Shown piece after piece: positions 5,557-37,625 of a stretch of DNA of 64,000 bases. This DNA comes from Candidatus Zixiibacteriota bacterium (GTDB lineage: Bacteria > Zixibacteria > MSB-5A5 > UBA10806). Each line of letters begins with the position of its first letter. Position 1 is the first letter of the stretch. Made by a program: the position numbers and the translations under genes. Under the pieces are notes generated by a model. That model had not been told where the DNA came from. It made no database searches and saw nothing but the letters and a program-made list of their open reading frames with translations. The DNA lies in the NCBI GenBank assembly GCA_020348065.1, contig CP070742.1:1228028-1292027 (forward strand), given 5' to 3'.

Positions 5557-7068
5557 TTACTCCGGTTCATCATCTTTTTCAAGTTCATATATGGCAACCC
5601 ACTCGCCGTAAACCCGTATTGAATCGACCGCTACAAGCGACGATAAAAACGGCCGGTAGGTTTCCGTGTATTCTTTTTTTGAAAACCTGCCGAATAAAAA
5701 CCGCCTGTGCGATTCCGGATGGATCTCGTTTTCGAAGATTATCACCCTGCCCTCGAAATCGGATAGCGTCGAGCGATACTTTTCGATCATCTCATTTTTC
5801 GGTCCGTCTTCCAGGTAGGCGACACTTTTGATCCGTGGTCGGACATTATAATGGTAATCGAGAGCCAGCCGAATCTGCGGCATATTGGAAACAAGAAGAT
5901 CATCTCTGGCCAGCGCCAGTTTTGCGAGGGCGTCCGCGCCGGTTCGGGAGACGGAATTATTAATGCGGGAGGCGGGAACGAAGGCGCAGGTTATATTGAC
6001 AAGAGCGAATATGATCATAGTCGCGTAGACGGTATTTCTTATAAATCCGGAATTTCCGACCGAGGAAAATACTATTATCAAGATTAGAACAACGGGATAG
6101 AACCAGAATCCGCCGTCCTGCGGCGCCCACCAGAAGGCGAAGATTAGAAATATAAATGCCGTAACCCCCAGCAAAATCGAATCGGCTTTCTTCAGCATAC
6201 TTTTCGCGGCGTTAATGAAGAGAATAGACATGCCGCATAGTGATAACATGGTCCCGACCACATACAGGATTTCCGGCAGCGAGATACCGCCCCCGTATAA
6301 CGCCTGCCGGAGCATGGAGCCGCCGAACACCGCCTTGGCAATACCGCCAAATGAGGCGATGACGCTCCCGGAATGGACTACTCCCCACCTGCCGAGGCCC
6401 GGATATTTCGCAAGCCAGGCATACGCTCCGGCTATGCCGTTATCCGACGCCGCTAACGCGACAATAATATAAATCACGAAACCGGGGATAAGGCTCAACA
6501 TACTTAACCTGATCGATCTTTTAAGGAAACCATGTCTGTAGGAATCATAGATCAGCATCGGGATCAGGGCTAGAATCAAGAGCTGGTGAAACAGTATCCC
6601 TATGGTTAAAAACAAGAACGCTAATATGGAATTCCTGTCGCTGCGTTCATTCAGCAGGTAATAAAGCGTCAGAGCCAGGAACATGATCGACACGATATTC
6701 ACCTCCACGGTGGTGGAGTAATACCAGAACGAAAATACCATCCCGATAATCATAGTCCCGGTCAGGGCGATCTCCGGTAAAGCCCGCTGTCTTATGAACC
6801 TGAATATCAAGGCCAGGCTGAAAGCCCCGATGACTGAGCTTACCAGGGAGATTACCTTCATGGCATCCAGACCGAGCCGCGTCGAAAGCAAATAAAGTAT
6901 ATACTTGAGGACATTATATAGTAGATGGTGAGGATGTACGATCTCCTGGCCATCGCGGGCGTCCAACAAAAAGGCATAGGAATCGTACCCCTGGTCGTTA
7001 TTGGGGACGAAGATAAAAAATACCAGGAAGAATAAGAAAACCAGCTTTTCGGGAGTAAGTTTAATCAT
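5557..7068 (-). CDS. GT-C-like polytopic membrane protein, probable glycosyltransferase
   Basis: The 503 residues contain about ten hydrophobic segments and end in a soluble tail (from about residue 400). The first periplasmic loop carries DQGYDSYAF followed by HPHHLLYNVL, the place where GT-C glycosyltransferases keep their catalytic acidic residues. This resembles DUF2723/PMT-type proteins that use polyprenyl-phosphate sugars. Its place between kdsA and kdsC suggests a role in LPS core or a related glycan, which is inference. It has its own strong promoter. It is not closely similar to the five GT-C-like paralogues downstream on the other strand. Confidence 0.7.
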   Translation of the reverse strand: MIKLTPEKLVFLFFLVFFIFVPNNDQGYDSYAFLLDARDGQEIVHPHHLLYNVLKYILYLLSTRLGLDAMKVISLVSSVIGAFSLALIFRFIRQRALPEIALTGTMIIGMVFSFWYYSTTVEVNIVSIMFLALTLYYLLNERSDRNSILAFLFLTIGILFHQLLILALIPMLIYDSYRHGFLKRSIRLSMLSLIPGFVIYIIVALAASDNGIAGAYAWLAKYPGLGRWGVVHSGSVIASFGGIAKAVFGGSMLRQALYGGGISLPEILYVVGTMLSLCGMSILFINAAKSMLKKADSILLGVTAFIFLIFAFWWAPQDGGFWFYPVVLILIIVFSSVGNSGFIRNTVYATMIIFALVNITCAFVPASRINNSVSRTGADALAKLALARDDLLVSNMPQIRLALDYHYNVRPRIKSVAYLEDGPKNEMIEKYRSTLSDFEGRVIIFENEIHPESHRRFLFGRFSKKEYTETYRPFLSSLVAVDSIRVYGEWVAIYELEKDDEPE

Positions 7069-8408: not shown

Positions 8409-11209
<2,801 letters not shown>

Positions 11210-11214
11210 AAGAA

Positions 11215-11243
11215 ATATTAACAAATCCGGCTTTGACTGTCAA
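11215..11243 (-). promoter_or_regulatory. Promoter of the kdsB unit, leaderless GTG
   Basis: On the minus strand TTGACA (11243-11238), a 17-base spacer and TAATAT (11220-11215) are followed after five bases by GTG 11209. Transcription would start on or beside the start codon. It is divergent from, and partly abuts, the promoter of the first GT-C-like paralogue. Confidence 0.7.
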
Positions 11244-11251
11244 TAAAAACC

Positions 11252-11280
11252 TTGAAAAGACTCCTCAGGTCTGATAATAT
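11252..11280 (+). promoter_or_regulatory. Promoter of GT-C-like paralogue 1, leaderless
   Basis: TTGAAA (11252-11257), a 17-base spacer and TAATAT (11275-11280) end six bases before ATG 11287. There is no Shine-Dalgarno sequence. Confidence 0.7.
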
Positions 11281-11286
11281 GCGTCC

Positions 11287-13074
11287 ATGTCAACAAGACA
11301 TCTAATAATTATATCCACCGTTTATCTGGCTGTCTGTGCTGTCTATTTATGGAGAATGAATTTGGTGACCTACCCCGGTTTCCCTCTTGACGATTCCTGG
11401 ATTCACCAGGTGTTCGCGCGCAACATAGCGGGCGGTCACGGCTTCTCTTTCAATCCCGGAATCCCCATAGCGGGGGCGACCGCCCCCCTCTGGACTCTGC
11501 TTTTGGTTCCCATGTGGCTTCTGTTCGGACCTATAACCGGCGGCATCGCCCTGGGCATGATCACCCAATGGCTGGCAATTCTGGCGGTTTACAAACTCAC
11601 CGAACGGCTGACCGAAGATAAAAGCCTGTCGTTTCTGGCGAGCATCCTTTCGGCCCTGTGCTGGCCGGTTATCTGGGGAGCGCTGTCGGGGATGGAGATC
11701 GGGCTTTATTCCGCCCTGTCGCTCTGGGGGCTTTATTTCTGCCTCAAATCGAACTCGCCCGATGACAGGTATAGTTATCTATCTTATTTCCTCTTCACCC
11801 TGGCATTCCTGGCCAGGCCGGAATGCGGGATCTTCCTCGCGGCAGCTTTCATTCACGACTTCTATGTCTGGATCAAATCAGGCTATAAAAAAAATATTCA
11901 CTGGCTGTTTAAACTATTTATGATAGCTGCCATTACATTACCATATTTTATCTTTAATTTTAAGACGTCAGGTACTTTCTTTCCCAGAACGTTCGGTTTT
12001 AAAGTACAGGATCAGGGTCTGCTGGCCTCAATCTTTGAAATAAATCCCAAAGGTATTATAAAGGCATTGACAATTTTGCCCCTGCATTACTTTAAGCTCT
12101 TTTTATATAGTCTATTTAGACTTAATCCTCTTCTTTTTTGCGCTATTTTTGCGGGGATTGTCCGGATTTTAAAGTGGGCGCCAGGGAGCTTTTCAAAACG
12201 ATTATCCCTGATTCTGATAATTGTCCTTTATATACCGATTCTGGGTTCCGTCGCTCCCGCCGCCTCGCCCGATTACCAGAACTACAGGTATATTACAAAT
12301 CTGCTTCCGCTTTTCATAATCCTGGCTGTAGCGGGATTTCTTTTTCCTCTGAAAAAGAAAATCAGCAGGGTATTTTTGTATTCCGGTTCTATCCTGATTT
12401 CGTTAATGCTCCTGGTTAAAATAATATTGGTGTTCTTCGGGGATTATATAATCGGGATAACGGTACAGGAACCGGCAAATATTAACGCGGATTATTTAAA
12501 AAATGTGGATGAATTCGTAATGGGCATAGCCATCGATTTCACATTAATATTATTATTCTATATAATTGCGGGTTCTATATTGTCGACCCGTCTCTGGAGC
12601 CGCATGGTAAACAGAGTCCTTTTTCGAACAATTGTAATTATTTTATTAATTCTTTTCAGCGCCGGGTCGGTCCTGCTTCAAAGCCCCCTATATGCCACGA
12701 ATGTAAGAAATGTGAATGAACGCAATGTGGAAGCGGCTATATTACTGAGGACTCTCGCAAATGAAGGTGATATCGTTGCGGTAAACGACGCGGGCGCGAT
12801 AGGGTATTTTTCCGGTATGGAAATCATCGATCTTAAAGGGATTATTTCTCCGGAAATAACGCTTGAAATGGTTAAAGATGATTCCATGGCGTTCGAGTAT
12901 ATGAGCAGAAGTGAAAGGGTCGACTACCTGGCTATCGTCCCCGATTGGTTCGATTACATTCCCTTGCGAACGGACATTTTTAAAGAAATCGCGTCGCTTA
13001 CAACGGAAAAAAATCTGATCGTATACGGAGATACAACCAAAATTTATAAAGCCTACTGGATTGAAGATGAATAA
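11287..13074 (+). CDS. GT-C-like membrane protein, tandem paralogue 1 of 5
   Basis: The 595 residues have an N-terminal transmembrane helix, a periplasmic loop with GFPLDDSWIHQVFARN (Asp35-Asp36, the place of the GT-C catalytic acid), about ten further helices and a soluble C-terminal part with GDIVAVNDAGAIGYFS and RVDYLAIVPDW. This layout fits membrane glycosyltransferases that use lipid-linked sugars (ArnT/PMT type). The substrate is unknown; the neighbouring Kdo genes hint at an envelope glycan. Bases 11371-11833 are almost identical to the same part of paralogue 2, while the second halves differ strongly. Confidence 0.72.
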   Translation: MSTRHLIIISTVYLAVCAVYLWRMNLVTYPGFPLDDSWIHQVFARNIAGGHGFSFNPGIPIAGATAPLWTLLLVPMWLLFGPITGGIALGMITQWLAILAVYKLTERLTEDKSLSFLASILSALCWPVIWGALSGMEIGLYSALSLWGLYFCLKSNSPDDRYSYLSYFLFTLAFLARPECGIFLAAAFIHDFYVWIKSGYKKNIHWLFKLFMIAAITLPYFIFNFKTSGTFFPRTFGFKVQDQGLLASIFEINPKGIIKALTILPLHYFKLFLYSLFRLNPLLFCAIFAGIVRILKWAPGSFSKRLSLILIIVLYIPILGSVAPAASPDYQNYRYITNLLPLFIILAVAGFLFPLKKKISRVFLYSGSILISLMLLVKIILVFFGDYIIGITVQEPANINADYLKNVDEFVMGIAIDFTLILLFYIIAGSILSTRLWSRMVNRVLFRTIVIILLILFSAGSVLLQSPLYATNVRNVNERNVEAAILLRTLANEGDIVAVNDAGAIGYFSGMEIIDLKGIISPEITLEMVKDDSMAFEYMSRSERVDYLAIVPDWFDYIPLRTDIFKEIASLTTEKNLIVYGDTTKIYKAYWIEDE

Positions 13075-13094
13075 CATGAAATATGGTTATTTGC

Positions 13095-13123
13095 TTGATA
13101 ACGTAAATCGATATTTATTAATT
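13095..13123 (+). promoter_or_regulatory. Putative promoter of GT-C-like paralogue 2
   Basis: TTGATA (13095-13100), a 17-base spacer and TTAATT (13118-13123) end five bases before ATG 13129. The -10 box is weak, but the same spelling and spacing occur before kdsC. There is no Shine-Dalgarno sequence. Confidence 0.45.
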
Positions 13124-13128
13124 TCGAC

Positions 13129-14934
13129 ATGCCGACAAAGCATTTGATCGCCATAACCGTAATCTATTTGATTCTTTGCGTTTTTTACCTTTTCTGGATG
13201 ACGTGGCATACCTACCCCGGTTTCCCACTGGATGATTCCTGGATTCACCAGGTGTTCGCGCGCAACATAGCGGGCGGTCACGGTTTCTCTTTCAATCCCG
13301 GGGTCCCCATAGCGGGGGCGACCGCTCCCCTCTGGACTCTGCTTTTGGTTCCCATGTGGCTTCTGTTCGGGCCTATAACCGGCGGTGTCGCCCTCGGCAT
13401 GATCACCCAATGGCTGGCAATTCTGGCGGTTTACAAACTCACCGAACGGCTGACCGAAGATAAAAGCCTGTCGTTTCTGGCGAGCATCCTTTCGGCCCTG
13501 TGCTGGCCGGTTATCTGGGGGGCCTTATCGGGGATGGAGATCGGGCTTTATTCCGCCGTCTCGCTCTGGGGGCTTTATTTCTACTTCAAATCGAACTCGC
13601 CCGATGACAGGTATAGCTACCTGTCTTATCTCCTCTTCACCCTGGCCTTCCTGGCCAGACCGGAATGCGGGATTTTTATCGTTGCCGCGATTATTAGAGA
13701 CGCCCTCATTGCCATCAGATCCCGCGATAAGAGAATCCTGCCCTGGATCGTCAAAATTTCTATCCTGCTGGTATTAACCGTTCCCTATTTTATCTTTAAT
13801 AATAAGACTGCCGGCGGTCTGTTCCCACGCACCTACTTAGTTAAAGTACGCGGGAAAGACCTGATTTCCTCATTGCTCGGCGGCGATTTCAAAACCGCCT
13901 TTAAGGCCTCTACGATTTACCCGCTCTTGAACGTGCAGGAATTTTTCATAAATATCGCAAAAATAAATCCCCTTATTTTAATTGCCGTTTTCACCGGAAT
14001 GTTCAAGATAATAAACTCATCGTTTACCGACAGATCCAAAAATATAATGCTGATTGCGCTTTGCATTCTATATATCCCGTTGATCGGGGTATTTTCTCCA
14101 AAATATATGCCCACGTTTCAGAATTATCGTTACGTGACGCATCTGATACTCTTAATGTCCATGCTGGGGACACTGGGTTTTTTCTGGCATAGCAATCAAG
14201 ATTTCGAGAGATACAAAAGATACAAAAAACCGTTTTTCATTCTGGGGGCCGTTATCACATTGGGTGGATTTTTTTTGGGACTGGCGTTCAGCCTGTTCGG
14301 CGGGGATATCGCTCCCCTGTTATTGCGTTATCCGGCGGGTTTTACGCCCGACGATCTTTCCGTTTTAAAATCCAATGTATGGAATATATGCGGGGGTATT
14401 TCAATCACAGGCCTTCTGGTATTACTGGGTTCAATTTTGATTTGCGGAAAAGTTAGCAGAATATTGTTATCCGTGAAGGGTATCCTGATTATGGCGTCAA
14501 TACTGGCGGGCGCCCTGATATCCGTTTATAAGGCCGATCTTTACGCCAACAACGTTAGAAATATAAATGAAAGCGACGTCGAGCCCGGGGTATACCTCAG
14601 GACAATACAAAAACCGGGGGATATTGTGGCGGTCAACGATATCGGGGCCATAGGGTATTTCTCGAACATGGAGGTGCTCGACCTGAAGGGGCTTACCGAG
14701 CCGGAAATTACGATAGAAATGCTTGAAAACGATTCCCTGTTGTTCGAATACATGAAATCCGAAAAACAGGTGGATTACCTGGCCATCGCGCCGGGATGGT
14801 ATAACTATATTCTGAAAAGGACGGACGTTTTTAAAAAGATCAAGGTTTTTTCATCTGACAACTGTACCGAGGTCGTAGGGGACACAACCCTGGTTTTTGA
14901 GGCAATCTGGCCGGATTCGGCCGGGGGCAGATGA
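13129..14934 (+). CDS. GT-C-like membrane protein, tandem paralogue 2 of 5
   Basis: The 601 residues have the same plan as paralogue 1: GFPLDDSWIHQVFARN in the first loop, IAGATAPLWTLLL, SGMEIGLYSAVSLWGLY, LARPECGIF, many helices, and a C-terminal soluble domain with GDIVAVNDIGAIGYFS and QVDYLAIAPGW. Residues 29-182 are nearly identical to paralogue 1. The middle and C-terminal membrane parts are diverged, as expected if only the donor-binding half was homogenised. The function is inferred as glycosyl transfer from a polyprenyl-linked donor. Confidence 0.72.
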   Translation: MPTKHLIAITVIYLILCVFYLFWMTWHTYPGFPLDDSWIHQVFARNIAGGHGFSFNPGVPIAGATAPLWTLLLVPMWLLFGPITGGVALGMITQWLAILAVYKLTERLTEDKSLSFLASILSALCWPVIWGALSGMEIGLYSAVSLWGLYFYFKSNSPDDRYSYLSYLLFTLAFLARPECGIFIVAAIIRDALIAIRSRDKRILPWIVKISILLVLTVPYFIFNNKTAGGLFPRTYLVKVRGKDLISSLLGGDFKTAFKASTIYPLLNVQEFFINIAKINPLILIAVFTGMFKIINSSFTDRSKNIMLIALCILYIPLIGVFSPKYMPTFQNYRYVTHLILLMSMLGTLGFFWHSNQDFERYKRYKKPFFILGAVITLGGFFLGLAFSLFGGDIAPLLLRYPAGFTPDDLSVLKSNVWNICGGISITGLLVLLGSILICGKVSRILLSVKGILIMASILAGALISVYKADLYANNVRNINESDVEPGVYLRTIQKPGDIVAVNDIGAIGYFSNMEVLDLKGLTEPEITIEMLENDSLLFEYMKSEKQVDYLAIAPGWYNYILKRTDVFKKIKVFSSDNCTEVVGDTTLVFEAIWPDSAGGR

Positions 14935-14984
14935 GAATCGCAATGTCATTTCAAAAGATATGAATGAAATTTCATACAAAATTC

Positions 14985-15012
14985 TTGTCGGGGAGGGCGA
15001 GAAGTCTTAGAT
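14985..15012 (+). promoter_or_regulatory. Putative promoter of GT-C-like paralogue 3
   Basis: TTGTCG (14985-14990), a 16-base spacer and TTAGAT (15007-15012) end six bases before ATG 15019. The same boxes and spacings recur before paralogue 4. Confidence 0.5.
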
Positions 15013-15018
15013 TCGGGC

Positions 15019-16818
15019 ATGGAAAAAAGGCATCTTCTCATAATAACCGTAATTTATATTGCCGTTTGCGCCTATTATTATATTCGAATGATCTCCATGA
15101 CCTTTCCCGGTTTTCCTCTCGACGATTCCTGGATTCACCAGGTGTTCGCAAGGAATATCGCCGGCGGCCATGGATTTTCTTTCAATCCCGGCAGGCCGGT
15201 CGCCGCCGACACGGCCCCTCTATGGGCAATCGTGCTGGTTCCAGCCTGGACAATTTTCGGGCCGGTAACGGGCGGAATAATCATGGGAGTGATTCTCCAG
15301 GGAATCGCGATTATAGCTATTTACAGGCTTGTACAGCGTATAACCGAGGACAATAATCTTGCCTTTCTGGCGACGCTTTTTTCCGTGTTTTTCTGGCCTA
15401 TCGTGTGGGGCGCAATGTCGGGCATGGAAACCGGCTTATATTCGGCTCTATCTCTATGGGGCATGTATCTATTTTTTATATCCGGGAGATCGGGCGATAT
15501 TCAAAGGTACGGGGCTTACGTGCTGTTTACGCTTTCTTTCCTGACGCGCCCGGAATGCATTTTGTTCATAGCCGCAGCCGTGATTCATGATCTTGTGACA
15601 GCGATAAAAGCCGGAGATAAGGCGATAAGACCATGGGCAATTAAGATTTTAATCATTATTGCCTTTACCGCCCCCTATCTGGCCTTCAACTATTCTACGG
15701 TCGGCATCATTTTCCCCAATACCTTTTCGGTAAAAGTCATGGGGAGAGACCTGATATCGGCGATAATGAGGAATGATCTTAAAGGAGTTCTGCACACGGT
15801 TACCGTCTATCCATATTTCTATCTGCAGCATTTTTATAGAAGCGCTGTAATGATAAATCCCGTTATAGTCCTGGCCCTGGTTCCAGGAATATTAAAATTC
15901 ATGGGGTTTCATGACGAGAATAGAGCCAAACGGATCATGTTCGTCCTGCTTTTTCTTGGTTATGTTCCGCTTATGGGGATTTTTGCCCCGGTAACATCGG
16001 CCGCCTGGCAAAATTACAGATATGTGACGAACCTGCTTCCCATGATGATTATAATAGGTATTACAGGATTATTCTGGAAAACGAAAGCCGAATACAAGCG
16101 TTATAAAAAGGCTTTATTAATAACGGGCCTGATTCTTACGGCCGGGGGTATTTTCCTGGCTTTTTTCTTTGAATATTTCAATAGGACCGTTATCCCTTTT
16201 CTGGTTCAAAATCCATCCTTTCTAAAAATCGAGGATTTCCGATATCTAACCGGCGTCATCGAAAGAGTCGGAATGGGAACGTTATTATTGGCAGCGATGG
16301 TTCTTATCGGATATGGCCATTCTTTCGGCAATTTCAGGAAATTCATCGGGTCCTCTCTTGTCAAAAAGCTGGTTATAACCGCGGCCTTATTGGGCTGTTT
16401 ATTCCTTACTATTATCAGGTCTCAACGCTACGCCGACAATGTTCGGAATGTCAATGAGTGCGATGTTGCCTCCGGAAAATTCCTGGCAAGGATCGGCAAA
16501 CCGGGAGATGTTGTTGCGGTTAATGATATCGGCGCGATAGGGTACTACTCCAACATGGAGATTTTCGATCTATGGGGCCTGATTTCAAAAGAGATTACTG
16601 TTGAGATGCTTACCAATGATTTTTTAACATTTGAATATATGCGAAAAAATAAGCAAGTTGATTACATGGCAATAGCGCCCGGCTGGTTTTTGTATCTGCC
16701 CGGAAGAACCGATATCTTTCATCCTATAGCCGAATTGAAAACGGAAAACAATACCATTCTGGCTCAGGATAAAATTATTGTATACAAGGCTTACTGGCCG
16801 GATAAGGCCGATGAGTAA
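15019..16818 (+). CDS. GT-C-like membrane protein, tandem paralogue 3 of 5
   Basis: The 599 residues keep the family hallmarks: GFPLDDSWIHQVFARN, then PVAADTAPLWAIVLVP (a variant of the GATAPLWTLLL seen in the other copies), SGMETGLYSALSLWGMY, LTRPECILF, and near the C-terminus RNVNECDV, GDVVAVNDIGAIGYYS and QVDYMAIAPGW. The replacement around the APLW motif and the Arg/Thr changes make this the most distinct N-terminal half of the five. It is preceded by its own promoter and no ribosome site. Confidence 0.72.
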   Translation: MEKRHLLIITVIYIAVCAYYYIRMISMTFPGFPLDDSWIHQVFARNIAGGHGFSFNPGRPVAADTAPLWAIVLVPAWTIFGPVTGGIIMGVILQGIAIIAIYRLVQRITEDNNLAFLATLFSVFFWPIVWGAMSGMETGLYSALSLWGMYLFFISGRSGDIQRYGAYVLFTLSFLTRPECILFIAAAVIHDLVTAIKAGDKAIRPWAIKILIIIAFTAPYLAFNYSTVGIIFPNTFSVKVMGRDLISAIMRNDLKGVLHTVTVYPYFYLQHFYRSAVMINPVIVLALVPGILKFMGFHDENRAKRIMFVLLFLGYVPLMGIFAPVTSAAWQNYRYVTNLLPMMIIIGITGLFWKTKAEYKRYKKALLITGLILTAGGIFLAFFFEYFNRTVIPFLVQNPSFLKIEDFRYLTGVIERVGMGTLLLAAMVLIGYGHSFGNFRKFIGSSLVKKLVITAALLGCLFLTIIRSQRYADNVRNVNECDVASGKFLARIGKPGDVVAVNDIGAIGYYSNMEIFDLWGLISKEITVEMLTNDFLTFEYMRKNKQVDYMAIAPGWFLYLPGRTDIFHPIAELKTENNTILAQDKIIVYKAYWPDKADE

Positions 16819-16871
16819 GACGTACCCCGATGCCCGCGGGAGAGCTTTTAAAAAAATTCCCGATAAACCCC

Positions 16872-16899
16872 TTGTCCGCCCGGATGATTATTTTTAGAT
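16872..16899 (+). promoter_or_regulatory. Putative promoter of GT-C-like paralogue 4
   Basis: TTGTCC (16872-16877), a 16-base spacer and TTAGAT (16894-16899) end six bases before ATG 16906. Confidence 0.5.
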
Positions 16900-16905
16900 T
16901 TGAAT

Positions 16906-18723
16906 ATGTCAAAGAAGCATTTGATCGCTATTAGCATAATATATCTGGCTGCCTGCGCTTTCTATTACATTCGAATGACATCAATGACCTATCCGGGCTT
17001 CCCTCTCGATGATTCCTGGATACATCAGGTATTCGCCCGGAATCTGGCCACCGGTCATGGTTTCTCATTTAATCCCGGCGAGCCGATAGCCGGGGCGACC
17101 GCGCCTCTTTGGACACTGCTTCTGGCGCTCACCTGGCCCCTGATGGGGCCAATTGCCGGCGGGATAATCCCGGGCTTGATATTTCAATGGTTTGCATACC
17201 TGGCGATTTACAAGATAGCTCAAAAGATTACAAACGATAAAAACCTGGCTCTGATTACCGCTGTTGTCTCCATCTTCCTCTGGCAGACGGTCTGGGGAGC
17301 TTTATCGGGAATGGAGACGGGACTTTTTTCGGCTCTATCTTTATGGGGCCTTTACTGTTATTACAAAGCAGATCGGTTGACTGATATATATTCTTATCTC
17401 GCCTATATGCTATTTACCCTGGCCTTTCTGGCGCGGCCCGAATGCGCCCTTTTCTTAGCCGCGACCGGAATTCATGATTTCTATAAATGGCTAAAAACGG
17501 AAAAAAGGAAATTCACTCCCTGGATATTCAGGTTCTTAATAATCGCTGTTATAACGGTGCCGTATTTCGCTTTTAATTACTGGTCGACCGGAACTTTTTT
17601 GCCGCATACATTTTCAGCCAAAACAGGAGGGCGGGATCTAATCAACGCCCTTTTAAACGGCGATTATAAAAAAGCCTTTCACGCGGTTACAGTTAATCCA
17701 TATTTCTATCTTCAACATTTCTTCAGGAAGATACCGGCTATAAATCCGATTATAGCTCTGGCGTCACTGGCGGGCATATTCAGGCTGCTGTTATCTGAAT
17801 CCGATTTTAAATCAAAAAACATAATGTTGGGTATACTCTTCCTTATATACGTTCCGCTGATGGGTGTATTTTCACCGATTTTCTCCGCATCATTTCAGCA
17901 TTTCAGATACGTAACCAATCTCTTCCCGATCCTGGCGTTTCTGGGAATTATAGGATTATTCTGGGATAAAAGGGCGGACCTGGCACGCCACTCCACGAAA
18001 ATAATAATCATCTCAGCAGTGTTTGTGGTGATCGGCCTGGGATTGAAATTTGTTTTCAAGTACTTTTCAGATTTTATAATCCCGTTAATAGTAGAATCAG
18101 ATCCCGGTCTTGATACGGATAAATGGGAACGATTGTACGGGGTTGTAACAAGGGTGGGGTATGGGACCGCCTTAATGGGTTTGATTCTCTATGCAGGTTA
18201 TTTATTAAATACCCATTCCGTGGCCGCTTTTATCAACAAACGGTATTTGCGGCGGATAATGATAGCACTGACCATCTTAACCGGCGCATACGTTACAATA
18301 AAGAACGCCGATACCTACGCCAACAACGTTAGAAACATAAACGAGGCCGACGTCGAGGCGGCCAGGTTTCTGGGAGAGATCGCTGAAGATGGGGATGTTG
18401 CGGCGGTAAACGATATCGGATCGTTCGGTTATTTCTCAACTATGGAAATATTCGATCTGTGGGGACTTGTTAACAAAGATCTGGATTATAGCGTTTTGGA
18501 AAACGACTCTCTGGTTTTTGAATACATGTATGACAATAGGCGAGTTGATTACGTGGCGATCTTTCCCAGCTGGTTTGGTTATCTTTCGAGTAGAACCGAT
18601 ATATTCAAACCGATCAATACGTTTGCTTCCGAATATAACACCATCCTGGCAGAGGACAGCACTGTAGTTTACAAAGCCGAGTGGCCGGATTCGCTGGCCT
18701 ATTCCCATGGTGTTTTCAAATGA
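16906..18723 (+). CDS. GT-C-like membrane protein, tandem paralogue 4 of 5
   Basis: A TTG at 16900 is in frame, but the ATG at 16906 matches the start of the sister genes and sits six bases after the -10 box, so I start there (605 residues). Motifs are GFPLDDSWIHQVFARN, IAGATAPLWTLLL, SGMETGLFSALSLWGLY, LARPECALF, ADTYANNVRNINEADVE and GDVAAVNDIGSFGYFS. It is closest to paralogue 5 (shared NPYFYLQHFFRK-like segment, FSPIFSASFQHFRYVTNL, GSFGYFS and FDLWGLVN), so these two form a subgroup. Confidence 0.72.
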   Translation: MSKKHLIAISIIYLAACAFYYIRMTSMTYPGFPLDDSWIHQVFARNLATGHGFSFNPGEPIAGATAPLWTLLLALTWPLMGPIAGGIIPGLIFQWFAYLAIYKIAQKITNDKNLALITAVVSIFLWQTVWGALSGMETGLFSALSLWGLYCYYKADRLTDIYSYLAYMLFTLAFLARPECALFLAATGIHDFYKWLKTEKRKFTPWIFRFLIIAVITVPYFAFNYWSTGTFLPHTFSAKTGGRDLINALLNGDYKKAFHAVTVNPYFYLQHFFRKIPAINPIIALASLAGIFRLLLSESDFKSKNIMLGILFLIYVPLMGVFSPIFSASFQHFRYVTNLFPILAFLGIIGLFWDKRADLARHSTKIIIISAVFVVIGLGLKFVFKYFSDFIIPLIVESDPGLDTDKWERLYGVVTRVGYGTALMGLILYAGYLLNTHSVAAFINKRYLRRIMIALTILTGAYVTIKNADTYANNVRNINEADVEAARFLGEIAEDGDVAAVNDIGSFGYFSTMEIFDLWGLVNKDLDYSVLENDSLVFEYMYDNRRVDYVAIFPSWFGYLSSRTDIFKPINTFASEYNTILAEDSTVVYKAEWPDSLAYSHGVFK

Positions 18724-18745
18724 TCAAGCAGTGGTCAATAACCGC

Positions 18746-18774
18746 TTGACAGGGGATTACGGAAAAAATAAATT
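18746..18774 (+). promoter_or_regulatory. Promoter of GT-C-like paralogue 5, leaderless
   Basis: TTGACA (18746-18751), a 17-base spacer and TAAATT (18769-18774) end five bases before ATG 18780. There is no Shine-Dalgarno sequence. Confidence 0.6.
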
Positions 18775-18779
18775 CGACC

Positions 18780-20597
18780 ATGCCTCGCAAACACCTGCTG
18801 ATAATTACATCGATTTACCTGCTGGTCTGCCTGTTATATTACTTCCGCACAACTCAAATCACTTACCCCGGCTTTCCCCTTGATGACTCCTGGATCCACC
18901 AGGTTTTTGCGCGCAATATAGCCACCGGGCACGGATTTTCCTTCAATGCCGACCAGCCCGTAGCCGGAGCGACAGCTCCCTTGTGGACTTTACTGCTGGC
19001 TCTAGCCTGGATGATCGGGGGTCCTATCGCGGGAGGAATTATAACAGGCATGCTATTCCAGCTGCTGGCTTACGTGGCCATATATAAAATCGCACTGATC
19101 ATTACCGAAAATCGAAACCTGGCATTTCTAACGGCTATTCTCTCGGTATTATTCTGGCAAACGATCTGGGGAGCCATGTCCGGTATGGAGACCGGCCTGT
19201 ATTCTGGGGTTTCTCTCTGGGGCCTGTACTTTTATTTCAAGGCGGATCGCCTGTCACATATTTTTTCTTATTTATCATACCTGCTTTTCGCATTGGCGTT
19301 TCTGGCGCGTCCCGAGTGCGCTCTGTTTATTGTATTCGCGGCGGTTCGGGATTTCTACGAATGGGTGAAATACGGACCGAAGGAGATCCTCCCCTGGGTT
19401 TACAAAATCCTGATTGTTATAATAATTATCACTCCGTATTTTATTTTTAATCTGCGGACAACCGGATCTTTGCTCCCCCTGACCTTCGCGGCCAAAGTTA
19501 AAGGAAGAGATATTGTCAGCTCGTTGATTGATGGCAACTTCAAGCGGATCGCGTATGCGGTTATAATATATCCGCTTTTTTACCTCCAGCATTTATTCAG
19601 ACACGCGCTGAGCATTAATCCCATAATAGTCCTGGTTTCCATGGGAGGAATCTTCAAGCTTATTTTAACCGGGGGTTCGTTAAGATCCAAAAAAATTATG
19701 CTCGGGTTGCTGTTTCTGCTTTATGTGCCACTGATGGGTACCTTTTCCCCTACCTTTTCCGCCTCCATGCAACATTTCAGATATATGACCAATCTTTTGC
19801 CGATCCTGGCCTTTACCGGAACCATAGGACTTTTCTGGGGCAAAAAAGCCGACCTGAAGCGATATTCCAAAAAACTGATAATAATTGCGGTGTTTCTGGT
19901 TATTATGGGAATAGGACTGATTTTTATTTTCAGATATTTCTCAGAATTAGTCATTCCAATCGTAACCATGGCGAGGCCTCATATCAAGGCGGATCAATGG
20001 GACCGGATTTATGAAATAGTCTTCAGAACGGGCCTGGGCATCTCTTTAATAGGCGTTCTGGCTTTGATCGGCAGGGGCTTGAATTCGGACAATTTTCATT
20101 ATTTTGTCGAAAAAAAGACTCCGCGTTGGGCCTTGATCGCGGTGTCAATCGCTCTGGGAGGCTTTATAACAATTAAAAACGCTGATACTTATGCCAATAA
20201 TATCCGTAATATCAACGAGTGCGATATCGAGGCCGCCCTATTCCTTGGCGACCTTGCTGAAGAAGGGGACGTAGTGGCTGTCAATGATATCGGCTCATTC
20301 GGTTACTACTCGAACATGGAGGTATTCGATCTCTGGGGTCTCGTAAACACTGAATTGTCCCGCGAGATGTTAGGCAATGATTCGCTGATTTTTGAATATA
20401 TGAAAGCACATAAAAGGGTGGATTACCTGGCTATTGCACCTACCTGGATGGGCTACCTTTCTAGGAGGATGGATATTTTCAAGCCGATGAGAAAAATCGT
20501 CTCCAAGGATAATACTATTCTGGCCGAGGATACGATCATAATCTACAAGGCCGAGTGGCCTGATTCGCTTAACTATAATTATCAAGGGCGCGAATGA
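18780..20597 (+). CDS. GT-C-like membrane protein, tandem paralogue 5 of 5
   Basis: The 605 residues match paralogue 4 over most of their length: GFPLDDSWIHQVFARN, VAGATAPLWTLLL, SGMETGLYSGVSLWGLY, LARPECALF, FSPTFSASMQHFRYMTNL, ADTYANNIRNINECDIE, GDVVAVNDIGSFGYYS and RVDYLAIAPTW. It is the last gene of the array. Its 3' end overlaps the 3' end of the convergent aminotransferase gene by 29 bases, so there is no room for a separate terminator. Confidence 0.72.
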   Translation: MPRKHLLIITSIYLLVCLLYYFRTTQITYPGFPLDDSWIHQVFARNIATGHGFSFNADQPVAGATAPLWTLLLALAWMIGGPIAGGIITGMLFQLLAYVAIYKIALIITENRNLAFLTAILSVLFWQTIWGAMSGMETGLYSGVSLWGLYFYFKADRLSHIFSYLSYLLFALAFLARPECALFIVFAAVRDFYEWVKYGPKEILPWVYKILIVIIIITPYFIFNLRTTGSLLPLTFAAKVKGRDIVSSLIDGNFKRIAYAVIIYPLFYLQHLFRHALSINPIIVLVSMGGIFKLILTGGSLRSKKIMLGLLFLLYVPLMGTFSPTFSASMQHFRYMTNLLPILAFTGTIGLFWGKKADLKRYSKKLIIIAVFLVIMGIGLIFIFRYFSELVIPIVTMARPHIKADQWDRIYEIVFRTGLGISLIGVLALIGRGLNSDNFHYFVEKKTPRWALIAVSIALGGFITIKNADTYANNIRNINECDIEAALFLGDLAEEGDVVAVNDIGSFGYYSNMEVFDLWGLVNTELSREMLGNDSLIFEYMKAHKRVDYLAIAPTWMGYLSRRMDIFKPMRKIVSKDNTILAEDTIIIYKAEWPDSLNYNYQGRE

Positions 20598-21708
20598 AAG
20601 ACTCGATCTCTTCCGGCGTATTATAGAAGTACGGCGATACCCTGATATTTCCTTCGCGGAAACTGACTATAAACTTGTTTTCTCTTAAATAATCATACAA
20701 TGAACGCGCGTTCTTTGACCCGAATGCCACTATCCCGGATCGCCTGTCGTCCATCTTTGATGATTTAAGCGCGAATCTATCGTCATAAACAATCTTATCG
20801 ATTATCATCCCCGTCAGCGATTTGATATAATCCCAAACCGAGACTCTATCAAAAGAGAGGTGAAGATCGACAGAGGCGTTCAGCGCCCTGATGTCCTGGT
20901 AAGCGTAGGTACCGTACTCGTACTTGGACGGCCCTTTCCTTTCCGGCAGGTCGTATCTCAAGAGATCGGTGAAATCATCGTTCCAGTCGACCGAAAGCCA
21001 ACCGATATTTATAGGTTGCAGTCTCTCCTCGGCTCGCTCCGACAGATAAAAGAAGCCGGTCCCGCACGGTCCCAGCATCCACTTCGCACATCCGCTGGTA
21101 AAAAGATCGATGTCGTTATCCGGCACATTTATCGGTATGACGCCCATCCCCTGTATCCCATCGACGCACAGCAGGATATCTTTCGATCGGCAAAACTCGC
21201 CCAGCTTGTTTATATCGGTCCTGAAACCGTTGTTGAATTGTACCCAGCTTATGCTTATCACCCGCGTATTTTTATCCACAAGCGCCATCAGCGAATCCTC
21301 ATCAATAAAGCCTTTATCGGTCGGGGCAAATCTGAGTTCCAGGCCGATTCGTCTTAAGCTCACCCAGGGGTAAACGCAGGCTGGAAATTCCGTTTCGGAT
21401 AGTACTATGTTATCGCCCCTTTCCCAGGGAAAACCACCAGCGATTATACTTAGCCCGGAGGTGGTATTATATGATAATCCCAACCTCCAGGCGTCGGCCC
21501 CGATCATTTTCGCGAGTTTGCCCCGCAATTCCTTGATAATTCGAAACGATTCAATGTCGTGTTCATGCTCAGTTTTCTGCCAGCTGTCCAGAAAATCGTC
21601 ATAGGCTTTCCGGGCCGGCAACGGCAATGGACCATGGGAAGCGTGGTTCAAATAAATTATATCCTTATTGAGATCGAAATATGATCTCGCTATTTTCAGA
21701 TCGATCAT
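20569..21708 (-). CDS. Class V aminotransferase-fold PLP enzyme
   Basis: The 379 residues belong to fold type I, class V (cysteine desulfurase/isopenicillin epimerase-like). Features are YLNHASHGPLP at the N-terminus, SYNTTSGLS, VSISWVQ-type strand, the cofactor Asp in LLCVDGIQGMG, and the Schiff-base Lys in SGCAKWMLGPCGTGF. The reaction is not clear; such proteins include desulfurases, epimerases and lyases, and the mobile catalytic Cys loop of desulfurases is not obvious. It lies two bases downstream of the SDR gene and is co-transcribed with it, which ties it to the sphingolipid-like locus by context only. Confidence 0.8.
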   Translation of the reverse strand: MIDLKIARSYFDLNKDIIYLNHASHGPLPLPARKAYDDFLDSWQKTEHEHDIESFRIIKELRGKLAKMIGADAWRLGLSYNTTSGLSIIAGGFPWERGDNIVLSETEFPACVYPWVSLRRIGLELRFAPTDKGFIDEDSLMALVDKNTRVISISWVQFNNGFRTDINKLGEFCRSKDILLCVDGIQGMGVIPINVPDNDIDLFTSGCAKWMLGPCGTGFFYLSERAEERLQPINIGWLSVDWNDDFTDLLRYDLPERKGPSKYEYGTYAYQDIRALNASVDLHLSFDRVSVWDYIKSLTGMIIDKIVYDDRFALKSSKMDDRRSGIVAFGSKNARSLYDYLRENKFIVSFREGNIRVSPYFYNTPEEIESFIRALDNYS

Positions 21709-21710
21709 GG

Positions 21711-22694
21711 TTATAACCAGCTGTTTTCCTTGTACCAGCGTACGGTTTTTTCGACGCCCTCCCGAAATGAGGTGGAAGCGACAAAGCCCATATCGCGCTC
21801 GATCTTATCGCTCGCTACCAACCAGTATTTCTGGGAGATTTCCATAGCTTTTTCCCGGGTGAAAATCGCCGCTTTTTTTCTATTTTCCGCGATCTTTTCC
21901 GATATCCAGCCGGCAAATCTCAACAAGCTTGCAGGGATATGAATATCTATCGCCTTTTTTCCCATTACTTCGCTGATAATATCTCCGGCTTCGCTGTAAG
22001 AATAGATCCTTTTTTCGGTTACAAAATATATCTCTCCGGATTGAACATTGGATTCGATGGATTTGACTATGGCCCGGGCGAAATCCTTGACAAATGTGAA
22101 ATTTATATAACATTCACCCATGCCAAATGTCGGTTTTATTCCGAATTTTACCGCTTTGAAGAAAGACAGCATCTCGTTATCCCTGGGACCGTAGATGGCT
22201 GACGGACGGAGAATTATAATCGGGATTTTTTCTTTATAATTTAAAACCCTTCTTTCACCCTCCGATTTCGATTTCCCGTAAACGGTTATCGGACGCGGCG
22301 GATTTTCCTCGCTCAACGGCATTTTTGAATCGGAGGGTCCGCTTGCCGCAACGGAGGATACTTGTACAAATTTCTCCAGATCCGGATTTGCTTTCAAAAC
22401 CGCCCTCAGAATATTGTCCGTTCCGTTGGAGTTAACTTTATAAAACATATCGGGATCGATTGTCTTGGTAAGCCCCCCGTTATTGACAACAGCCGCAACC
22501 CCATCGACTGCTTTTAAAAGCGAATCAAAGTCATTCAAGTCTCCGTAAACGAGCTCGATATCCAGTCCCTTTAAATTGATAAGATTCGAAGTATGCCTGA
22601 CCAGAGCTTTTACCTGGTAACCCGATTCGAGGAGAGTTCCACAGATATGAGAACCGACAAAACCATTGGAGCCTGTGACGAGGACTTTTTTCAA
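21711..22694 (-). CDS. NAD(P)-dependent SDR/epimerase, candidate ketosphinganine or ceramide reductase (CerR-like)
   Basis: The 327 residues form an extended short-chain dehydrogenase: Rossmann motif VTGSNGFVGSHI, catalytic VSSVAASGPS and YGKSK (Tyr/Lys), and ILRPSAIYGPRD. The start is TTG at 22694, supported by AAGGAG ten bases upstream. It is divergent from a serine palmitoyltransferase gene with overlapping promoters. In Caulobacter an epimerase-family reductase (CerR) works beside Spt in ceramide synthesis (established, from memory), so a reduction step on a sphingoid intermediate is the favoured inference. A sugar epimerase remains possible. Confidence 0.75.
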   Translation of the reverse strand: MKKVLVTGSNGFVGSHICGTLLESGYQVKALVRHTSNLINLKGLDIELVYGDLNDFDSLLKAVDGVAAVVNNGGLTKTIDPDMFYKVNSNGTDNILRAVLKANPDLEKFVQVSSVAASGPSDSKMPLSEENPPRPITVYGKSKSEGERRVLNYKEKIPIIILRPSAIYGPRDNEMLSFFKAVKFGIKPTFGMGECYINFTFVKDFARAIVKSIESNVQSGEIYFVTEKRIYSYSEAGDIISEVMGKKAIDIHIPASLLRFAGWISEKIAENRKKAAIFTREKAMEISQKYWLVASDKIERDMGFVASTSFREGVEKTVRWYKENSWL

Positions 22695-22708
22695 CTCTTT
22701 TTATCTCC

Positions 22709-22740
22709 TTGACATTAGAGTTAGATTTGGGTAATTTCAA
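22709..22740. promoter_or_regulatory. Two overlapping, opposed promoters for the SDR and spt genes
   Basis: Plus strand: TTGACA (22709-22714), 17 bases, TAATTT (22732-22737), serving spt. Minus strand: TTGAAA (22740-22735), 17 bases, TAATGT (22717-22712), serving the SDR gene. Each -35 box overlaps the other promoter's -10 box, so polymerase can occupy only one at a time. Confidence 0.6.
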
Positions 22741-22786
22741 AAATTAAAATAAAATAGTCGATGTTTTACGTACCGGCAAGGCGTTT

Positions 22787-23989
22787 ATGTTGTCAACGGA
22801 GAAAATAATGGATCTTTTTGAGAAATGTAGAAATTTCAACGCCGCCAGAGAAGTCGAAGCCATGGGCCTATACCCTTACTTCCGGCAGACATCGTCTATG
22901 CCCGACACGGAGGTAATCGCCGAAGGGAAAGAAGTCATAATGATCGGCTCAAACAATTACCTGGGATTAACCAGCCATCCCAGGGTGCTTGAGGCTATTC
23001 ATGACGCTGTCAATAAATACGGTTCGGGATGCACCGGATCGCGATTCCTGAACGGAACGCTCGACATTCACGTCAAGCTGGAGGAGGAACTGGCCGATTT
23101 CATGCGCAGGGAAGCGGCTCTGGTATTTTCGACGGGTTTCCAATCGAATTTAGGAACCATCGCCACACTGATATCCAAAGACGATACCGTTATCGGGGAT
23201 CGGGCCAATCACGCCTCCATTGTTGACGGATGCCGGCTCACGTTCGGGGAATTCAAAAAATATAAACATAACGATATGGCCGACCTGGAACGGGCTCTTC
23301 AAAAATCAAATAATACCAAAGGTAAGCTCATAGTAACGGATGGCGTCTTCTCGATGGAGGGCGACATAGCCGATCTGCCCAAAATAACAAATCTTGCTGC
23401 CAGCTATGGCGCCCGTCTGATGGTTGACGATGCGCACAGCATCGGGGTGTTGGGTAAAAACGGGCGCGGCACCGCCGAACATTTCGGCCTTGAGGATAAA
23501 ACCGATATCGTAATGGGCACCTTTTCCAAATCCTTCGCTTCTATCGGGGGTTTTATCGCCGCCGACGAAAATATAATTCATTACATAAAGCATCATTCCC
23601 GGGCGTTGATATTCTCCGCCGCTCCCCCTCCCGCGGCCGTGGCCGCCGTACGTACCACCCTGAAAATTTTGATTTCCGAGCCTGAGAGAAGAACCAGATT
23701 GTGGGAAATAGCCAGCAGGATGCACACGGAATTCAAGGATATGGGGTTTGATATCGGCCCCACGCAGACCCCCATTGTGCCGATCATAATCGGCGACGAT
23801 ATGAAAACATTCGCTTTCTGGAAGGATCTCACGGAAGCGGGGCTTTTCACAAATCCGATAATTTCCCCGGCGGTGCCCCCCGGTCAGGCGCTGATTAGAA
23901 CCAGCTACACCGCCACCCATACCGACGATCAGCTCGACCGTGTGCTGGAGGTCTTCTACAAGGTTGGCAAAAAATTCGGAATCATATAG
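22787..23989 (+). CDS. spt: Serine palmitoyltransferase (alpha-oxoamine synthase family)
   Basis: It would join serine with an acyl-CoA (or acyl-ACP) to 3-ketosphinganine, the entry step of sphingolipid synthesis. The 400 residues show GSNNYLGLTSHPRV, YGSGCTGSRFLNGTLDIH, FSTGFQSNLG, DRANHASIVDGCRL, KYKHNDMADLE, VTDGVFSMEGDIADLP, VDDAHSIGVLG and the PLP Lys in GTFSKSFASIGGF. The KYKHND, FSMEGD and SKSFASIGGF segments follow Bacteroidetes-type serine palmitoyltransferases more closely than glycine acetyltransferase (Kbl) or BioF. The ATG follows AAGGCG. It runs directly into the acyltransferase gene. Confidence 0.85.
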   Translation: MLSTEKIMDLFEKCRNFNAAREVEAMGLYPYFRQTSSMPDTEVIAEGKEVIMIGSNNYLGLTSHPRVLEAIHDAVNKYGSGCTGSRFLNGTLDIHVKLEEELADFMRREAALVFSTGFQSNLGTIATLISKDDTVIGDRANHASIVDGCRLTFGEFKKYKHNDMADLERALQKSNNTKGKLIVTDGVFSMEGDIADLPKITNLAASYGARLMVDDAHSIGVLGKNGRGTAEHFGLEDKTDIVMGTFSKSFASIGGFIAADENIIHYIKHHSRALIFSAAPPPAAVAAVRTTLKILISEPERRTRLWEIASRMHTEFKDMGFDIGPTQTPIVPIIIGDDMKTFAFWKDLTEAGLFTNPIISPAVPPGQALIRTSYTATHTDDQLDRVLEVFYKVGKKFGII

Positions 23990-25117
23990 TTGTCATCCAT
24001 CGATATAATAGAAGTCCAAAACAGATCCGACCTGAATAAATTCATAAAACTGCCCCTTCGACTGTACCGGAACGAAAAGTATTATGTCCCGCATCTGATT
24101 TCCGAGCGTAAAGCTTTCTTCGACCGCGATAAAAATCCGTTTTTCGAACACGCCAGGGCGAAATATTTCCTGGCAATAAAAAAAGGCAAAGCGGTCGGCC
24201 GTATCGCGGGGATAGTAAACGATCTTCACAATGATTTTCACGATGAAAAAGCCGGTTTTTTCGGATTCCTCGATTGCATAGACGATCCGGATACAGCCGG
24301 ATCTTTATTGCGGGCCGCCGGGGATTACGTTCGCGGCGAGGGAATGGAGCTTATCCGGGGGCCGATGAATTTCTCCACCAACGACGAGGTGGGGTTGCTT
24401 ATTGAGGGATTCGACTACCTGCCGACATTCATGATGCCCTACAATCCCCCGTATTATATCCCGCTTTATGAGAGACTGGGACTGAAAAAGGCCAGGGATC
24501 TGATCGCGTTTTACCTCGATGACAGCAATCCCATTTCCGAACGCTGGCTTAAAATCGTCGAGAAAATGAGGGCTCGGAGCAGGATAAAAACCCGGACCAT
24601 CAGGATGAATGAATTCCAATCGGAACTGGAAATCATCAGAACAATTTACAACTCCGCCTGGAGCAAGAACTGGGGTTTCGTGCCCATGACCGAGGAAGAA
24701 TTCCAACACACCGCCGACGACTTTAAGAAACTGGTCGATCCCGATCTGGTATTCATCGCCTTTGTCGACGACGAACCCGCCGGCTTTATACTCGGTCTGC
24801 CCGACTACAATCCGATTTTCAAGAAAATGAATGGCCGGCTCTTCCCGACCGGTATATTCAAGTTCCTGTACTATACCAAAGTAAACAAATTCATGCACCG
24901 GCTGCGGGTGTTAACTATGGGCGTGGTCCATAAATACCAGAAATTGGGGCTTGACGCGATTTTCTTTGTCGACATTTACAACGCGGGCCGCCGTAATGAA
25001 TACCACTGCGCGGAGCTGTCTTGGATCCTGGAAGACAACGTCATGATGATTAAAGCCGCCGAAAATATGGGCGCCAGGCCGTATAAAAAATACAGAATTT
25101 ACGAAAAGACTTTATAA
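23990..25117 (+). CDS. GNAT-like N-acyltransferase, candidate bacterial ceramide synthase
   Basis: The 375 residues start with TTG at 23990, the base after the spt stop codon, so the two genes are translationally coupled. Segments typical of this large GNAT-like family are GRIAGIVNDLHN, RGPMNFSTNDEVG, MMPYNPPYY, LTMGVVHKYQKLGLD (acyl-CoA-binding region) and ELSWILEDNVMM. I recall that the Caulobacter ceramide synthase bCerS is a GNAT-fold protein encoded near spt; by that parallel this gene would acylate the sphingoid amine. The role is inferred from context and family; the exact acyl donor is unknown. Confidence 0.7.
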   Translation: MSSIDIIEVQNRSDLNKFIKLPLRLYRNEKYYVPHLISERKAFFDRDKNPFFEHARAKYFLAIKKGKAVGRIAGIVNDLHNDFHDEKAGFFGFLDCIDDPDTAGSLLRAAGDYVRGEGMELIRGPMNFSTNDEVGLLIEGFDYLPTFMMPYNPPYYIPLYERLGLKKARDLIAFYLDDSNPISERWLKIVEKMRARSRIKTRTIRMNEFQSELEIIRTIYNSAWSKNWGFVPMTEEEFQHTADDFKKLVDPDLVFIAFVDDEPAGFILGLPDYNPIFKKMNGRLFPTGIFKFLYYTKVNKFMHRLRVLTMGVVHKYQKLGLDAIFFVDIYNAGRRNEYHCAELSWILEDNVMMIKAAENMGARPYKKYRIYEKTL

Positions 25118-30420: not shown

Positions 30421-30423
30421 ATG

Positions 30424-31904: not shown

Positions 31905-31910
31905 AATAAG

Positions 31911-33215: not shown

Positions 33216-33293
33216 AACGCTGTCCCGATTCCAACTGAGTCCAGCGCCCTCTATCCCATAAAGATAATAAATTAACAATTTATATGCAAATTA

Positions 33294-36956: not shown

Positions 36957-36959
36957 ATC

Positions 36960-37613: not shown

Positions 37614-37625
37614 GAGGACTCTCCC

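Follow-up and report, generated by a model that had tools for sequence, protein, structure and literature searches.

A tandem array of five AftB-like GT-C proteins next to Kdo genes in a Candidatus Zixibacteriota genome

Introduction

In mycobacteria, the genes of EmbC, EmbA and EmbB are clustered. Their products are GT-C paralogues that use one lipid donor and make different linkages, according to extracts of PMC7305291. AftB, the mycobacterial terminal beta-(1->2) arabinofuranosyltransferase (PDB 9dlf, 9dlh), is another GT-C enzyme, and extracts of PMC12041299 describe its donor site. The essential D62 is about 3.8 A away from the anomeric carbon of a donor analogue. R221 and R372 are also essential and both stabilise the departing phosphate, while E172 is in contact with the C5 hydroxyl and T274 with the fluorine on the analogue's ring. 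A retaining double-displacement mechanism was proposed in the same extracts. Here we describe an array of five tandem genes, g1 to g5, that encode AftB-like GT-C proteins in a 64,000-nt stretch (the window; all coordinates are positions in it) of the genome of Candidatus Zixibacteriota.

A further point of comparison is given by the three-component pentofuranose side-chain systems with GT136, as in Citrobacter youngae O1. According to PMC11127046, these combine a polyprenyl-phosphate phosphoribosyltransferase with a periplasmic GT-C enzyme acting on an outer-membrane polysaccharide, and the polyprenyl-phospho-ribofuranose route is described there. Literature searches on Zixibacteria lipopolysaccharide (LPS) or glycosyltransferases, on GT-C tandem arrays or gene conversion, and on AftB in Chloroflexi listed no description of the array.

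Results

Five intact paralogues homologous to AftB

The host genome (G000) is a single contig of 3.74 Mb. Among named genomes, Candidatus Zixiibacteriota bin119 (CP070813.1) is closest to it. The array occupies positions 11287-20597 of the forward strand and consists of five intact, uninterrupted open reading frames (ORFs), separated by 54-84 nt without any further gene in between:

11287..13074, +, g1, AftB-like GT-C protein, 595 aa (ORF, family profile, invariant donor-site residues)
13129..14934, +, g2, AftB-like GT-C protein, 601 aa (ORF, family comparison)
15019..16818, +, g3, AftB-like GT-C protein, 599 aa, the structure-predicted copy (ORF, model, fold comparison)
16906..18723, +, g4, AftB-like GT-C protein, 605 aa from ATG (ORF; the ORF list gives TTG 16900, 607 aa)
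18780..20597, +, g5, AftB-like GT-C protein, 605 aa (ORF, family comparison)

For g4, the ATG at 16906, two codons past the TTG, is better supported by promoter spacing and by the orthologue in the related genome G001. The proteins are 43-59% identical in pairs, and all five carry GFPLDDSWIHQVFARN and a conserved C-terminal region. A first-pass annotation of the window had claimed five tandem paralogues of 595-607 residues with this common loop and C-terminal domain and without genes between them, and the ORFs confirm it. A search of the host's own genome returned exactly five full-length copies, g1-g5; other GT-C-like genes are a weak match at G000:C1:1417419 and a PMT_2-type gene at 5557-7068 of the window. 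Across the ten paralogue pairs, identity is 61-96% for residues 28-176, 34-48% for 177-300, 27-55% for 301-480 and 47-63% for 481-599. These values agree with the annotated pattern of a conserved N-terminal half, a variable middle and a conserved C-terminal domain.

Family models place the proteins at a distance from described enzymes. The sole Pfam glycosyltransferase match is PMT_2 (PF13231), at 20.9, 25.9 and 22.7 bits for g1, g2 and g3 with a gathering score of 26.1; g4 and g5 are unmatched. In NCBIfam, the best match for four of the five is NF047440 (LA_3751/LA_3752), a Leptospira family of putative glycosyltransferases. It gives 34.6-55.5 bits for g1-g4 (best E-value 4.3e-15) and nothing for g5. 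At scores so far under its cut-off of 200 bits, the array proteins are, on sequence, not members of this family. The AftB equivalog model NF041481 (cut-off 1050 bits) gives 16.3 bits for g5, 10.5 for g2 and no match for the others. Because this cut-off is not reached, we call the proteins AftB-like and not AftB.

A family profile of 43 rows was built from the five window proteins and 38 hand-chosen members of 84 listed related ORFs. Searched against the PDB, it finds one sequence at E-values up to 1, mycobacterial AftB, with an E-value of 2.4e-12 over AftB residues 61-403; a profile of the five sequences alone reaches AftB at 0.74. Profile comparison therefore identifies the array proteins as homologues of AftB. 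We single out AftB because it is the one PDB match of the 43-row profile; fold comparison alone does not rank it first.

An AlphaFold2 model of one copy, g3, built on 43 sequences, has a predicted local distance difference test score (pLDDT) of 90.9 and a predicted template modelling score (pTM) of 0.90. Foldseek places ArnT first (1.5e-7), followed by oligosaccharyltransferase (OST) subunits, PglB and AftB (4.5e-5). With VIA-align, Z is 24.1 for Pmt4 (350 aligned residues, 4.1 A) and about 24 for Pmt1-Pmt2. ArnT follows at 22.4 (442 aligned, 5.1 A) and AftB at 20.1 (435 aligned, 4.7 A, 14% identity). The matches to ArnT, PMT, OST and AftB span residues 1-599, the whole length. As modelled, g3 has a GT-C fold with a C-terminal alpha/beta cap and belongs to the GT-CA type, which is marked by a membrane fold of many helices, a conserved periplasmic loop near the N-terminus and a juxtamembrane helix that carries a catalytic Asp, so that structure prediction recovers the fold expected in the first-pass annotation.

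The donor site

When the 43 family rows are compared with AftB, the AftB residues D62, E172, R221, T274 and R372 align with D36, E137, R177, T235 and R334 of the array. D36, E137, R177 and R334 are each found in 43 of 43 rows and T235 in 42. D35 and D36 together form a DD motif, also present in 43 of 43. In this alignment the donor-site residues are intact in all five array copies. By analogy, the double-displacement mechanism of AftB might also operate in the array enzymes.

Gene conversion between g1 and g2

The N-terminal segment of g1 and g2 is a gene-conversion tract:

11368..11814, +, tract in g1, residues 28-176
13210..13656, +, tract in g2, residues 28-176

In ten-codon windows, DNA identity of the two genes is 87-100% across residues 28-176 and about 50-73% on either side. 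In a tree of the tract, g1 groups with g2 (98/99). Forcing g1 together with its orthologue in G001 is rejected (approximately unbiased test, p-AU 8.9e-5), as is forcing g2 together with its own orthologue (p-AU 4e-46). The remainder of the genes places orthologues together (100/100), and there a g1 + g2 constraint is rejected (p-AU 3.6e-4). Conversion between g1 and g2 in the lineage of the window is firmly established. Copies 1 and 2 of G001 have the same homogenised tract on a weakly supported joining branch (65/31), and conversion between them is probable. The tract includes D36 and E137 and ends just before R177. The N-terminal conservation had been taken as a sign that one donor type is kept. 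The shared donor site fits that view; the likeness of g1 and g2 is partly due to conversion, not to constraint alone.

Copy number and gene order in related genomes

The array lies between kdsB, on the left, and a class-V aminotransferase gene followed by a ceramide-type locus, on the right:

10460..11209, -, kdsB, divergent from g1, with a leaderless-type GTG start (TTGACA-17-TAATAT-5-GTG) (sequence, synteny)
20569..21708, -, class-V aminotransferase, right boundary of the array (conserved synteny)
21711..25117, ceramide-type locus with an HpnA/CerR-like epimerase (-), a serine-palmitoyltransferase-like enzyme (+) and a GNAT-type protein (+)

At this site, five genomes of the host's family hold 5 (window), 5 (G001), 2 (G002), 2 (G004) and 0 (G003) copies; the tandem array has expanded at one conserved site, and the copy number varies among relatives, a point that the first-pass annotation had asked about. 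The order kdsB, array, class-V aminotransferase, epimerase, serine-palmitoyltransferase-like gene is found in the window, in G002 and in G004. The ceramide-type order beside the array is also kept in G001, in G002 and, up to the end of its contig, in G004. The five copies of G001 are collinear with those of the window, to which they are 76-85% identical, and its right flank is the same. In G003 the site is empty: the kdsB and aminotransferase matches are 136 bases apart, with no array, and TGTCAATAAAAACCTTG beside kdsB is kept. Because G004 belongs to the genus of G003, loss of the array in G003 is the simpler reading.

G010 and G019, from another family, have two-copy tandem arrays in a different neighbourhood, the second copy of G019 running off the contig. 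Eight genomes with long matches were counted as carriers (G000, G001, G002, G004, G010, G019, G032 and G020); G047 has a fragmentary match where its contig ends. The family search matches 45 of 58 genomes, most of the matches being weak, mainly N-terminal and taken as other GT-C proteins. In a tree of 25 hand-chosen rows, the two copies of G004 pair with each other and the doublet of G010/G019 falls in a separate clade, although several branches of the tree are long and conversion might give the same picture. From these separate groupings, duplication seems to have been repeated.

Promoters

A promoter-like site precedes each start codon:

11252..11280, +, g1 promoter, TTGAAA-17-TAATAT, 6 nt before ATG; similar site before the first copy of G002 and of G004
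13095..13124, +, g2 promoter, TTGATA-18-TAATTT or TTGATA-17-TTAATT, 4-5 nt before ATG (position read off the sequence); conserved in G001
14985..15013, +, g3 promoter, TTGTCG-17-TAGATT, 5 nt before ATG; conserved in G001
16872..16900, +, g4 promoter, TTGTCC-17-TAGATT, 5 nt before ATG 16906; conserved in G001
18746..18774, +, g5 promoter, TTGACA-17-TAAATT, 5 nt before ATG; not conserved in G001

The common layout is a TTG-type -35 box, a 17-nt spacer (16-18 for g2, depending on the -10 box chosen) and a TA-rich -10 box, with 4-6 nt between its end and the start codon. No Shine-Dalgarno sequence was found before any of g1-g5. We call leaderless-type a gene that lacks a Shine-Dalgarno sequence and has its -10 box 4-7 nt upstream of the start codon, judged from consensus matches alone; all five array genes and kdsB are of this type. 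The -35 boxes of kdsB and g1 stand back to back.

The layout is rare elsewhere. The first of two promoter rules selects five of five array genes and, in three genome stretches, two of 59 other ORFs of at least 200 aa, which are kdsB and the ORF at 56658-59285. That second ORF (-) encodes an 875-aa patatin-POTRA-Omp85 fusion and is the sole surveyed ORF besides kdsB and the array with a leaderless-type promoter. The first rule finds 9 of 1896 ATGs in the window, the array's own among the nine, and the second rule 14 of 1894. A stricter pattern, CTTG-N19..21-TADATT-N4..6-ATG, occurs 12 times in the host genome, three times in the array, and once in a reversed control. The excess suggests a small set of candidate leaderless genes in this genome.

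Among relatives, copies 2-4 of G001 retain the layout (the start of copy 1 is lost to a gap of N), as do the first copy of G002 and both copies of G004, with 8 nt in the second. Copy 5 of G001 and copy 2 of G002 do not, and the first copies of G010 and G019 have a Shine-Dalgarno sequence instead. For kdsB, the same layout with a GTG start is found in four genomes, those of the window, G002, G003 and G004. Since the promoters end 4-6 nt before the start and Shine-Dalgarno sequences are absent, leaderless transcripts are predicted, and with them separate transcription of the array genes. The separate promoters of the first-pass annotation are thus upheld as consensus sites before five of five starts. 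Terminator-like sites were not found between g1-g5, which leaves room for read-through from one copy into the next. A search for known RNA families in 10000-23000 gave none at gathering scores.

Selection and phase variation

For the five orthologue pairs of the window and G001, omega, the ratio of nonsynonymous to synonymous substitution rates, is 0.05-0.28 in every region and pair for which it is computable. Synonymous divergence could not be computed for the first 27 residues of g1 and its G001 counterpart, where 4 residues are comparable. All five copies are under purifying selection. Rapid evolution of an antigenic type was considered and is rejected: besides the omega values, the array's identity to G001 (76-85%) is like that of its right-hand neighbours (69-95%).

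The first-pass annotation had also suggested a phase-variable surface glycan. Homopolymers in the array do not exceed 8 nt, and no tandem repeat scores above 38, the unit being present in about 2 copies. Ten inverted-repeat pairs were found, none bracketing a promoter as a unit. With no repeat- or inversion-based switch found in the array, orthologues collinear and selection purifying, phase variation is unsupported.

Neighbouring genes

The left flank contains kdsB, pyrG, kdsA, kdsC, kdsD, an LpxL-type acyltransferase gene and lptB; kdsA, kdsB and pyrG were named from sequence, and kdsB also from synteny. On the right, the serine-palmitoyltransferase-like gene matches NF047600 at 552 bits, under the cut-off of 640, and the GNAT-type protein matched no NCBIfam family. 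This flank is likely a ceramide-type lipid locus and not an LPS locus. The array had been described as lying beside Kdo (3-deoxy-D-manno-octulosonic acid) and LPS genes, which holds for its left side and not for its right.

Between a kdsC-type gene and kdsA lies a PMT_2-type GT-C gene of 503 aa (5557-7068, -), which does not occupy that place in G002. Used as a comparison, it gave no PDB match by phmmer, a single sequence being set here against a profile, on unequal terms. Farther right, two neighbouring four-gene sets (29692-33278 and 35287-39221) are mutually paralogous. The fourth gene of each has DUF6754, and both sets are kept in G002.

Donor supply

The host genome has a homologue of the mycobacterial decaprenyl-phosphate phosphoribosyltransferase, 1.1 Mb from the array, which scores 302.4 bits with an NCBIfam cut-off of 234 and matches the solved enzyme 8j8j at 3.2e-39. 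Because this is the first enzyme of the pathway, polyprenyl-phospho-ribofuranose is one candidate donor. A DPM1-like and an ArnC/GtrB-like enzyme are further possible donor makers. No GtrA-type protein (flippase) was found in G000. The ALO domain (DprE1-type) has no match in G000 and one among 13 genomes (G003), with a positive control in Corynebacterium glutamicum; an arabinose donor made via DprE1 is ruled against by this result.

Discussion

Proposed function and alternatives

On balance, g1-g5 are probably inner-membrane AftB-like GT-C transferases that use a polyprenyl-phospho-sugar and decorate an outer-membrane glycan. Their active site would face the periplasm. Asp36 of the DD motif would take the sugar from the polyprenyl-phosphate carrier for transfer to an outer-membrane glycan under assembly. 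As acceptor, LPS is the likeliest choice, given that kdsB and the array diverge from a common promoter region. One donor chemistry would be kept by the common N-terminal segment, whereas residues 177-480, which have diverged, may direct the five copies to different acceptor positions or linkages; a separate promoter would allow each copy to be transcribed alone. The proposal of one donor with varied acceptor or linkage is in this way supported by the shared donor site and the diverging middle, its acceptor side being what we infer. A bolder version, which we regard as speculative and unlikely, is a furanose-rich LPS built by an AftB-type set fed with polyprenyl-phospho-ribofuranose without any arabinose pathway. 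Here residues 28-176 would be a donor and catalytic cassette, re-copied between neighbours by gene conversion and combined with diverging acceptor modules, and the leaderless promoter of each copy would be tuned with Kdo synthesis by way of the promoter region that the array has in common with kdsB.

Several points weigh against the proposed function. The array proteins are under every curated Pfam and NCBIfam cut-off, and fold scores do not single out AftB, with Pmt4, OST and ArnT equal or higher. The acceptor is assigned from gene neighbourhood, and the doublet of G010 lies on a contig other than those of kdsB and of the ceramide locus. As to the donor, the missing ALO/DprE1 match makes arabinofuranose unlikely, and with DPM1-like and ArnC/GtrB-like enzymes a hexose or an amino-pentose is just as possible. 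Almost every genome of the class has a match to the phosphoribosyltransferase (57 of 58, with 49 over the cut-off), so its co-occurrence with the array is uninformative. The enzyme was not found in G001, which has five copies. G001 also has no kdsB match, and a gap of 100 N lies at the left edge of its array (L006 9900-9999). Both absences are therefore weak evidence, and that of the phosphoribosyltransferase may be an assembly hole.

The ceramide-type genes that adjoin the array on the right raise the question of another acceptor. The array would then glycosylate a ceramide-anchored lipid instead of LPS, adding a periplasmic glycosphingolipid head group together with the neighbouring lipid genes. 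The serine-palmitoyltransferase-like match, sub-cut-off as it is, the HpnA-like epimerase and the GNAT-type gene fit this, as does the gene order kept in three relatives. Extracts of PMC11087976 place Caulobacter CerR in the periplasm, the side where GT-C enzymes act. Yet G003 keeps the ceramide-type genes without any array, the two loci are on different contigs in G010, the GNAT-type protein belongs to no NCBIfam family found, and it is kdsB, not the lipid genes, that has a promoter region in common with the array. We consider a ceramide-linked acceptor doubtful. That the five are PMT-type protein O-glycosyltransferases, every copy with exported proteins of its own as substrates, is distinctly improbable. 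PMT_2 is the one Pfam glycosyltransferase match, Pmt4 and Pmt1-Pmt2 give the best VIA-align rows, and a DPM1-like synthase is encoded in the genome. Set against this, no copy reaches the PMT_2 cut-off and two have no match at all, the only PDB sequence match is AftB, and the neighbours are lipid and Kdo genes.

The five genes could also be a dosage device, that is, copies of one activity kept alike by conversion and acting on the same acceptor. The converted tract of g1 and g2 and the differing copy number at the site point that way. However, over residues 301-480 the paralogues are 27-55% identical, compared with 67-83% to their own orthologues, from which it follows that the copies form five lineages which were separate before the window and G001 split and have remained so. 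A dosage device is accordingly highly unlikely.

Significance and comparison with known systems

With the AftB-like function as proposed, AftB-like and possibly pentofuranose-using chemistry would extend beyond mycobacteria to an uncultured phylum of LPS type. The genomes with 0, 2, 2, 5 and 5 copies offer a natural series on how a GT-C acceptor changes while the donor is kept. The conversion tract marks, from evolution alone, a part of the protein that is swappable between copies, and the candidate leaderless promoters make a clear prediction on transcription in Zixibacteria. What is new in this locus is its AftB-type donor site, its conversion tract, its predicted leaderless promoters and the empty site.

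AftB and the array proteins share homology, the GT-C fold, the DD motif and five donor-contact positions. They differ in that the array proteins are about 14-15% identical to AftB and reach at best 16.3 of the 1050 bits required by the NCBIfam AftB model. In their host a Kdo gene set of LPS type is present and ALO/DprE1 finds no match, and the array is made of five tandem genes. The GT136 systems resemble the present case, by component description, in the homologue of their first component in G000. They differ in that the phosphoribosyltransferase gene shares no locus with the array and in that no GtrA-type protein was found in G000. The LA_3751/LA_3752 family is the nearest by NCBIfam score for four of the five proteins, under its cut-off. 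The nearest functional analogue is the EmbC/EmbA/EmbB set. Emb proteins have more than 1000 residues, reach Z values of 13-17 to the g3 model and show no sequence match to the array profile. The array is of a known kind, tandem GT-C enzymes that probably share a donor as the Emb proteins do, here in another sequence family and in another type of envelope.

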